From: a bacterium
GTDB lineage: Bacteria; Patescibacteriota; Saccharimonadia; Saccharimonadales; UBA4665
Direction of reading: 5' to 3'
DNA: 64,000 bases
Assembly (NCBI GenBank): GCA_021783725.1
Contig: JAJXTN010000001.1
Coordinates: forward strand, 62,001 to 126,000
This document shows, in pieces, positions 21,582-24,140 of this stretch. Below the pieces are notes generated by a model. The model was not told the origin of the DNA and searched no databases. It worked only from the letters and a program-made list of their open reading frames with translations. How positions within the stretch are numbered: the stretch's first letter is position 1; each line of letters starts with the position of its first letter. The position numbers and the translations under genes are program-made.

Positions 21582-22289
21582 CTAGCCGAGAGTGTTAGAG
21601 CCTCTTATATAAAGATCACTCAAGGTTTTAACAACCGGTCTAATATCAGCCAGACTTTCGACGACTCCGTCGACTCGACTCAAAGCGATTGGGCTGTTGC
21701 CACCGAAAATCAAGCGTAGAGTTTTTATCTGATTGGCATCGAAATGACCATCACTAGTTTTGTGAAATGATACGCTGTCGAAATCGAAATCGTAATGACC
21801 AGCAATCTCCAGTCGATGACCGTCAGTATCATCCAATAGGTTTGGGGTGTGGCCGTCCAAATGCAATAACTGGGCCATGAACCACAGTTCGACCAGCATT
21901 AGTGGCACTTCGGCATCATCTAGCGCCAAGAAAGCCCGCTCTAACAGCTCAAAATAATCGGCTTCTGGTTGATCTTCGGTGGCCGTATTCAACAGTTTAA
22001 TCAATCGGTAGCCGAGTTGAACCCGATCAATGTCTTGAACAATCCGACCAAAATGTTTAATCAGTCTAGACGATACCATCGTGCCTATTTCACCGAGGCC
22101 ACGGATATAACTGACTTCACTAATACTGAACAGCTCGATACCACCTGCTAAACGACTTTTGATTTTGCGCACGCCCCGGGCCATCAACCGCAGTTTGCCA
22201 TGATCGGGAGTCAAAACCGTGACGATACGATCAGCTTCACCGTAATCGGTCCGACTGAGAATTATACCGGTAGTTTGAAGCTGTTTCAC
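21582..22289 (-). CDS. recO: DNA repair protein RecO
   Basis: Promotes annealing and RecA loading in RecFOR-type recombination. The 235 residues have the N-terminal OB fold (TTGIILSRTDYGEADRIVTVLTPDHGKLRLMARGVRK) and a helical C-terminal domain; the zinc-finger cysteines seen in some RecO proteins are absent. The start codon overlaps the receiver gene stop by 4 nt, so RecO is translated from the same message as the two degenerate signalling proteins upstream. Confidence 0.9.
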   Translation of the reverse strand: MKQLQTTGIILSRTDYGEADRIVTVLTPDHGKLRLMARGVRKIKSRLAGGIELFSISEVSYIRGLGEIGTMVSSRLIKHFGRIVQDIDRVQLGYRLIKLLNTATEDQPEADYFELLERAFLALDDAEVPLMLVELWFMAQLLHLDGHTPNLLDDTDGHRLEIAGHYDFDFDSVSFHKTSDGHFDANQIKTLRLIFGGNSPIALSRVDGVVESLADIRPVVKTLSDLYIRGSNTLG

Positions 22290-22672
22290 GCTGGTATCGG
22301 GGCCAGACTGGCAACCATTCTGAGCATATTGGCCAGCGACGTTTTGGGCTTATAGGCGTAAGCTACAACACCGAGTTCTTTGGCTAAAATGTCTTGACTG
22401 CCACCGAACTCCACTTCCGGAACATTACTTAGAATCATCACTGGCACCGACTGCCACTCCGGATAAGATCGAAACTCGTACAAGAATTCGATGCCCGAAT
22501 GATTGATCAATTGGACTTCTAAGATAATGAGATCCGGACAAATGGCATCGGCGGCGAATATCGCCGACTGGGCGCTAGCGCACATCAACACTTCATAACC
22601 AGCTGATTCCAAACTAGTTCGGTAGATATCAGCCAATATCCGATCGGGTTCGATGAGTAATATCTGGGCCAT
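22286..22672 (-). CDS. pseudo-receiver protein (REC fold, phospho-Asp replaced by Glu)
   Basis: 128-residue stand-alone receiver fold. ILLIEPDRILADIY supplies the acidic pair and YKPKT the conserved Lys. The phosphorylation-site strand reads DLIILEVQL: Glu52 stands where Asp is required. The usual switch Thr/Ser is Ser in MILSN. A Glu there often mimics permanent phosphorylation, so the protein is probably locked and used as a protein-protein adaptor. It is packed between the kinase-like gene (no gap) and recO (4-nt overlap). Confidence 0.82.
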   Translation of the reverse strand: MAQILLIEPDRILADIYRTSLESAGYEVLMCASAQSAIFAADAICPDLIILEVQLINHSGIEFLYEFRSYPEWQSVPVMILSNVPEVEFGGSQDILAKELGVVAYAYKPKTSLANMLRMVASLAPIPA

Positions 22673-23383
22673 TTATACCAACTGTAGTTGATTATTGAGC
22701 TGCAGAACAGTACCGAGGCCAAATAAATGTTGGTGTCTGGACACTTTGAGTTTGAGGCTCATGGCCGATAGTAAAGCATCAGCTACGAATATACCTGCCC
22801 CACTACTTTGACTAAGTCCAGCCAGCGGCTGTCGAGCTCGGCCTTGCAAAGAACGACCTTGACGCAAAAGATCGCCAGTCAAATGTTCAGTATCAGCGTA
22901 CAGACCAGCGACAATGCCATAACGACAACGGTGAGTCGCTAAATGCAGTTTGAGCTGATTGGTTTCCAAGGCTGGCAAAGCTTCAATCAATGAAGTACCC
23001 AAGCTAACTAGAGCCGCCTGCAGGGCAATGCGATTAGCCATGACTGGACCAAAGCGGCCAGCAATATTTAGTTCCAAACCAACGCCATAACTTTTGGCCA
23101 AGCTATCAAGTTGCTGTCCAGTATCGTACAACACCGATGATACCGAAACCGGTTCAATGTCCAACAATTGATGATCAAGACTCAGCCGGACGCCCAAAAC
23201 ATAATTATCGATAAGTGCCAGCGCACTATCAGCCGTGGTTTGGATAGCACTGATATCGGTATTGCCAATCAATAGTGCCTGCTCAGCTTGGCGAGCAATC
23301 TGAAGTAATGGCAATTTGAGTTGTTCGGCGACACTCAACAACAGCTCTTGTGACAAGATAGTCGGATCGGCTGACTGAAACAC
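22673..23383 (-). CDS. degenerate histidine-kinase-like protein
   Basis: 236 residues, no membrane helix. The N-terminal helix pair resembles HisKA, but the H-box reads EQLKLPLLQ (about residues 20-28) where HELRTPL is expected, so the phosphorylated His is missing. The C-terminal half follows a HATPase_c pattern with a damaged N box (LVSLGTSLIEAL) and a partial glycine box (SSGAGIFVADALL, later GLGTVLQLN). It is likely a pseudokinase. The start is GTG at 23383. It is translated together with the pseudo-receiver and recO. Confidence 0.68.
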   Translation of the reverse strand: MFQSADPTILSQELLLSVAEQLKLPLLQIARQAEQALLIGNTDISAIQTTADSALALIDNYVLGVRLSLDHQLLDIEPVSVSSVLYDTGQQLDSLAKSYGVGLELNIAGRFGPVMANRIALQAALVSLGTSLIEALPALETNQLKLHLATHRCRYGIVAGLYADTEHLTGDLLRQGRSLQGRARQPLAGLSQSSGAGIFVADALLSAMSLKLKVSRHQHLFGLGTVLQLNNQLQLV

Positions 23384-23468: not shown

Positions 23469-24140
23469 CTAAGGCGAATAACTTAGATTCGGCAAAATGT
23501 AAGTATTGAAATCATTAAGATATTGACTACCCTCTGTCCATACTTGCAATGTTTTATCGCGCAACGGCAGAACTACCATCGTACCTGTTTTGCTATCACT
23601 GATTTGACCGCTGACTTTAACACCGACTTGGCTAGGCACTTTTGGCAAAGAATAGGCCGTGACTGTTGTGGCGGCTACCTGTGGGCCGGTCAGCGACTGA
23701 TTGATGGCTTGAACGGTTTGACTATAACTCTGGGCAATCACTTGGACCCTCAATGCGAATATCGAGTTGGTGTCAGTAATCGACGGTACGGTAGAGTTAG
23801 CGAAATAGCCATCAACTAAAGCTGTGTTGTTGGAACCGCTATCGTCGACGTAGCCACTCCATGTCTTCGGGAACATGACTACTAGGCTGCCATAAGCTTG
23901 AGGACCGTTATAGGTGCGTAGTGGCGATTTTTGGGCTTCAGCGAACTGAGCATCTTTAGCAGTACCCTCTTGTTGCTTGGCGACGGTCACGGCGGCAGCA
24001 ATTTTAGCATCGACATTATTCTTATAATCTTGGCGACCCTTGAAAGCCCAACCACCGAATACGAGAGCGATTATCAGGAATACTACCAGTCCCAAGGACA
24101 ATAGCCAGGAACTTGACCCAAGTTGGTTAAGCTTATGCAT
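23469..24140 (-). CDS. membrane-anchored extracytoplasmic protein, unknown
   Basis: 223 residues: a short cytoplasmic tail, one membrane helix (about 12-32), a charged helical spacer and a beta-rich extracellular domain starting near YGSLVVMFPKTWSGY. The domain has a PsbP-like strand order (FPKTW followed by alternating strands), but I would not name a family. TTGCCA-17-TAACAT lies 6 nt before the ATG, so a leaderless message is predicted. Confidence 0.7.
   Translation of the reverse strand: MHKLNQLGSSSWLLSLGLVVFLIIALVFGGWAFKGRQDYKNNVDAKIAAAVTVAKQQEGTAKDAQFAEAQKSPLRTYNGPQAYGSLVVMFPKTWSGYVDDSGSNNTALVDGYFANSTVPSITDTNSIFALRVQVIAQSYSQTVQAINQSLTGPQVAATTVTAYSLPKVPSQVGVKVSGQISDSKTGTMVVLPLRDKTLQVWTEGSQYLNDFNTYILPNLSYSP

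Follow-up and report, generated by a model that had tools for sequence, protein, structure and literature searches.

The window, i.e. the whole 64,000-nucleotide stretch of DNA analysed here, encodes directly upstream of recO a histidine kinase-like protein and a receiver, both of which lack the residues used for phosphotransfer. We are highly confident that these two proteins, called KL and RR below, form a non-phosphorylating pseudo-pair. Concerning their role, we give a probability of about 0.5 to a phosphotransfer-dead adaptor that would derive from a two-component pair, dock on the sliding clamp and work with RecO. The genes lie on the minus strand of an assembly of 843 kb (19 contigs), in the order xseA, xseB, methyltransferase, Up, KL, RR, recO and glyS. 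As an earlier sequence-only reading of this DNA had stated, KL and RR run into recO: no nucleotide separates KL from RR, and RR shares 4 nt with recO. The features are distributed as follows:

23469..24140, minus strand: Up, membrane-anchored protein 5' of KL
22673..23383, minus strand: KL, pseudo-histidine kinase with DHp and CA domains, 236 aa, GTG start (ORF, AF2, Foldseek, profile matches, comparison of 172 loci)
23324..23326, minus strand: Glu20 codon of KL, aligned with the phospho-accepting His
22676..22690, minus strand: KL tail QLQLV (Q232-V236), resembling a beta-clamp-binding motif
22286..22672, minus strand: RR, single-domain pseudo-receiver, 128 aa, ATG start (Pfam Response_reg, AF2, Foldseek)
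22646..22648, minus strand: Pro9 codon of RR, replacing the second acidic residue
22517..22519, minus strand: Glu52 codon of RR, replacing the phospho-Asp
21582..22289, minus strand: recO (TIGR00613, 100.8 bits), partner gene by synteny

Up is kept at the same operon position across the order, and has no Pfam match over the cut-off. The RecO of the window contains no cysteine, so that the usual four-Cys zinc site is absent, and its RecO_C Pfam score is just under the cut-off.

Kinase and receiver folds without catalytic residues

The sequence-only reading had described KL as kinase-like, devoid of the H-box histidine and damaged in the N box, and each of these points held. At the H-box position KL reads VAEQLKLPLL, and in the alignment its Glu20 falls in the column occupied by His in the 59 orthologues that keep both His and Asp. 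The N box is SLGTSL instead of NLxDN; the G1 box is broken too, both its Asp and its Gly being lost. KL alone gives no Pfam match. The profile of its family, built from a 56-member alignment, matches solved histidine kinases, DivL and RetS included, with a best E-value of 1.5e-17. The AF2 model (pLDDT 89, pTM 0.86) shows two DHp helices followed by a CA domain, and Foldseek searches with this model return HK853 among the best matches (E 5.8e-10) and DivL lower (E 1.7e-8). Orthologues encoded at the same locus are ordinary HisKA plus HATPase_c proteins. KL itself has no sensor domain and no transmembrane segment.

These replacements extend well beyond the window. Glu occupies the His column in 84 of the 99 loci where both His and Asp are missing. 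In the 97 loci that combine a Glu-bearing RR with a His-less KL, the first N-box Asn is kept in only 7, the second is changed to Ala or Ser in about two thirds, the G1 Asp is replaced, and the second G of the G2 box is retained in 85. Judged from these residues, KL cannot be phosphorylated at the usual site, where Glu stands for His, and very probably does not bind ATP. The non-phosphorylating character proposed earlier for the pair thus stands on the lost residues; a nucleotide-sensing pair, offered at the same time, is disfavoured, since the N-box Asn/Asp and the G1 Asp/Gly (ATP-Mg) are gone in nearly all of these 97 loci.

RR scores 39.7 bits against the Pfam Response_reg cut-off of 30.2 (E 6e-10). 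Its AF2 model (pLDDT 96) has the (beta-alpha)5 receiver fold, and the Foldseek neighbours of this model include RR468, DivK and PhoB D10A/D53E (2JB9). The site residues are E8-P9-D10, E52, S82 and K108, and there is no output domain. Alignment with Asp-bearing orthologues bears out that Glu52 stands in place of the phospho-Asp, as previously read from the sequence. EP is found at the acidic pair in 92 of 98 loci with E52; the position is acidic in most Asp-bearing loci. RR is therefore a receiver fold without phospho-Asp, i.e. an Asp-less receiver or pseudo-receiver. It is plausible that it is locked in an activated-like state, because Glu is the commonest replacement of Asp in Asp-less receivers (26%, PMC4395418), because a second change is frequently required for constitutive receiver activity, PhoB being an example (PMC4395418), and because 2JB9 is a structural neighbour.

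Residues 58-77 of RR (about 22442-22501 of the window), HSGIEFLYEFRSYPEWQSVP, surround helix 3; nowhere are the dead receivers more conserved (E66, Y70, G60). Kinases do not usually make contact here, and the stretch may be the effector surface.

In close pairs where dS could be estimated, dN/dS ranges from 0.03 to 0.13 for KL and from 0.05 to 0.19 for RR, values that are rough since many dS are saturated. KL is at least as conserved as RecO in most close pairs. By these sequence ratios both genes are under purifying selection, and pseudogene decay was rejected on the KL values. KL is thus a kinase fold without catalytic residues and under selection: a pseudo-histidine kinase.

Ancestry of the pair beside recO

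We compared 172 distinct loci with adjacent KL, RR and recO, 163 within the class and 9 outside. His and Asp are both kept in 59 loci and both lost in 99; His only is lost in 13, Asp only in one. The dead state is found in essentially all sampled genera of the family to which the window belongs, hence the degenerate pair is not a chance event; it is also present in many other families of the order. Large family f26 has an intact pair with a short soluble kinase (AAHELKSPL in the kinase; EDD and Asp in the receiver). In some outgroup families, f39 and its relatives, a kinase of 657-1133 aa stands beside the same recO, and the two proteins that were scanned contain PAS and GAF domains. Outside the class the order kinase-receiver-recO still occurs.

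Orthologues keeping His and Asp, which the sequence-only reading took as evidence against a pseudo-pair should they occur in close relatives, are absent from the family of the window; other families within the order and the class do have them. Intact orthologues in such distant families show the ancestry of the pair and do not refute its present state. The conservation of the Glu and of the gene order, also raised in that reading, could be followed in relatives: a large clade has the loss in common, and the order holds across the class. The comparison shows that the ancestors of KL and RR were an intact sensor kinase and a receiver, already located beside recO.

On the RecO tree, which is weakly resolved inside the order, the state at the root is an intact pair and several His losses are needed. 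Branches with good support lie between the dead Saccharimonadales clade on one side and f36 and other families, in which KL has decayed further, on the other, so that His was lost independently at least two times. The losses of His and Asp are associated and not locked to each other; with only 2 well-supported independent contrasts, no significance is claimed. A strict joint loss was considered and rejected on the 13 loci with Asp and no His and the single reverse case. The loss of His can come first, since His is gone without loss of Asp in these 13 loci, to which further, more degraded families are added. The idea that the two partners are damaged in complementary ways is therefore right as to both being degenerate and overstated as to their coupling. 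The 13 loci that lost His alone belong mainly to one clade.

Some individual loci deserve mention. In a side clade made of f29 and its kin (L170, L174, L176, L178, L181-L183, L282-L285) the KL His is lost, often with Asp or Asn in its place, and RR keeps its Asp and has lost the second acidic residue. L286 is the sole locus where the KL His is kept and RR carries Glu. L129 and L182 come from public records titled Chlamydiae and Kerfeldbacteria, yet bear the Saccharibacteria KL-RR-recO locus; these records are probably mislabelled or contaminated bins.

The KL tail, the clamp and RecO

The most constant part of KL is its C-terminal tail, which the sequence-only reading had overlooked. Gln232, five residues from the C-terminus, is the only invariant column among 56 KLs with identities down to 19%. 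It is present in all 163 aligned KLs of the class, intact or dead, and in 5 of the 9 outside the class; with the four tailless outside loci set aside, it ranks first in conservation among KL positions. The consensus reads Q-L-x-L-[VLIF]: large sensor kinases end in QLPLL, short intact kinases in QLSLL, QLSLF or QASLF, and members of the dead clade in QLQLV. Even the most degraded KLs keep it (QLNVF, QLSLP, QIPF, QIPLL, QMPL), the Gln being one of 3 columns invariant among them. All these tails are homologous, and their agreement reflects inheritance plus selection rather than independent origin. In intact orthologues the tail lies beyond the HATPase_c match. The pattern Q[LMIAT]x[LFIMW][LVIFMW] occurs within the last 14 residues of 167/172 KL, 0/172 RR and 3/172 RecO, and in 19 of 1180 other ORFs of at least 150 aa, a background of mechanical ORFs from the locus regions rather than annotated genes or a whole genome. 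It is absent from 8 other kinases of the genome to which the window belongs. Outside the class, full-length kinases beside recO end with QLPLI or QLSLI in two families (L242, L244, L247, L250, L253); those of L238-L240 and L245 have no tail.

We consider with good confidence that the tail is a short linear binding motif. The beta-clamp-binding motif is QL[S/D]LF or QxxLF and is often C-terminal (PMC12309361; PMC4549789); on this resemblance DnaN has an even chance of being the partner. The DnaE of the genome carries QTDIF in its C-terminal third. The DnaN of relatives retain TDSYRLA, YPDY.KLIP and VMPLK, which we take to be the residues of the cleft. dnaN is present in 29 of 31 genomes; neither dnaN nor recF was found in the assembly of the window. 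This is likely an assembly gap and not a true absence, because the two missing genes are neighbours in relatives. For E. coli it has been proposed that RecF, through its contact with DnaN, directs RecFOR to gaps (PMC10287930). That KL replaces RecF in bringing RecO to the clamp was envisaged and rejected, since 179 of the 195 class genomes have a recF scoring above the cut-off.

The link with recO is the second constant feature. KL, RR and recO are adjacent in 55 of the 56 loci examined, the 56th being cut by a contig end. RR lies directly upstream of recO, adjacent or overlapping, throughout the class, even in families whose KL can hardly be recognised. Four genomes, 2 of them under 90% complete, lack KL and RR, and no recO was found in these either. 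The tie to recombination repair seen earlier in the gene overlap is thus extended by a class-wide gene order. An operon neighbourhood need not mean interaction; we lean slightly towards RecO as the functional partner.

In the reading that we prefer, the tail would dock KL on the sliding clamp DnaN, and the KL dimer would hold RR in a fixed activated-like state without exchange of phosphate. The complex would then act on or with RecO, placing it at clamps on newly replicated DNA or at gaps. A tentative history, which we find somewhat less probable than this reading itself, would start from an ancestral cytosolic PAS/GAF kinase of Patescibacteria, tethered to DnaN by a C-terminal motif and signalling through a recO-linked receiver to recombination repair; most soil and groundwater Saccharibacteria would have dropped the phosphate chemistry and kept a fixed clamp-receiver-RecO adaptor.

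The closest rival also takes the pair as a phosphate-independent adaptor, with a tail that is no clamp motif: it would pack on the CA domain of KL, or bind RR, RecO, SSB or another protein. This is a serious possibility, although we rate it below the clamp. AF2 predicts a short helix at the tail with fair confidence (pLDDT about 80), and just some 4 residues separate the tail from the last CA strand. Within the dead clade Gln predominates at position 3, and position 5 is usually Val or Ile in place of Phe or Leu. With this drift from the consensus QLQLV, which ends with Val, is a weak match to the clamp motif. Against this, the grammar of the clamp motif (QLSLF, QASLF, QLSLL, QLPLL) is class-wide and includes intact kinases; moreover, related kinases of the phylum stop at the same place without tail (FSFSLPVAK, FYFTLPITK), and the fold therefore does not need it. 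Another reading, which we regard as slightly less probable than this rival, is that the module regulates transcription or some other process and sits beside recO only since the operon is old. Single-domain receivers usually act on varied targets by protein contact, and the operon also holds xseA, the methyltransferase gene and glyS; however, RR-recO is the tightest link of the locus and outlives a recognisable KL, and the genomes without a recO match have neither RR nor KL.

It is unlikely that KL is a DivL-like sensor of another phosphorylated receiver, with RR as a DivK-like ligand and only a part of the scaffold. DivL has no His and senses a receiver in its phosphorylated form (PMC4211667), the fold of KL resembles it, and the genome has other intact receivers and kinases; but nothing points to a second receiver, and in most lineages KL and the contiguous RR have altered together, a sign that they are still paired. 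That KL and RR are drifting relics with no present function is strongly disfavoured. All catalytic residues are indeed gone and some families have degraded further, whereas the ORFs are intact in nearly all genomes, KL has a dN/dS of 0.03-0.13, the tail is invariant and the gene order is conserved.

Comparison with known systems

KL is a structural match to DivL of Caulobacter, and both have a DHp-CA fold in which the phospho-His is replaced. DivL has no autokinase activity and binds ATP weakly (PMC4211667). It differs from KL by its PAS domains and by sensing DivK, a receiver that is normally phosphorylated; KL carries no sensor, its N and G1 boxes are gone, and the receiver paired with it is itself dead and adjacent to recO. 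We know of no report of a clamp motif in DivL. RR resembles the Asp-less and pseudo-receivers (ALR, PsR; ChxR, RitR, FrzS), with Glu for Asp, the first acidic residue and the Lys kept and the second acidic residue lost; unlike them, it is a stand-alone protein of 128 aa without output domain, whose pairing with a pseudo-kinase and recO is conserved. The constitutive receiver PhoB D10A/D53E is changed at the same two positions (P9 and E52 in RR); it is a laboratory mutant of a DNA-binding regulator, whereas RR has Pro, not Ala, and lacks an output domain. KL shares with proteins bearing a beta-clamp motif (PolC QLSLF, Hda QLSLPL, transposases) a C-terminal peptide Q-L-x-L-hydrophobic located beyond the folded domain.

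In the open-access literature searched, no histidine kinase with a clamp motif is reported, and nothing relevant was found on Saccharibacteria and the KL-RR pair. Pseudo-kinases and pseudo-receivers, whose way of working is described as open (PMC12632262), are known singly; the literature searched holds no cognate pair of the two that is linked to recO and bears a clamp-type tail. If the tail binds the clamp, a two-component protein would sit on the replication machinery in bacteria with reduced genomes and a mostly host-dependent life, a location for which we know of no earlier example. Within one class, a single locus shows all the stages, the sensor kinase being intact at one end and the pair dead at the other, with a soluble kinase in between and a constant tail motif, and so provides a natural experiment on two-component function once phosphate is gone.
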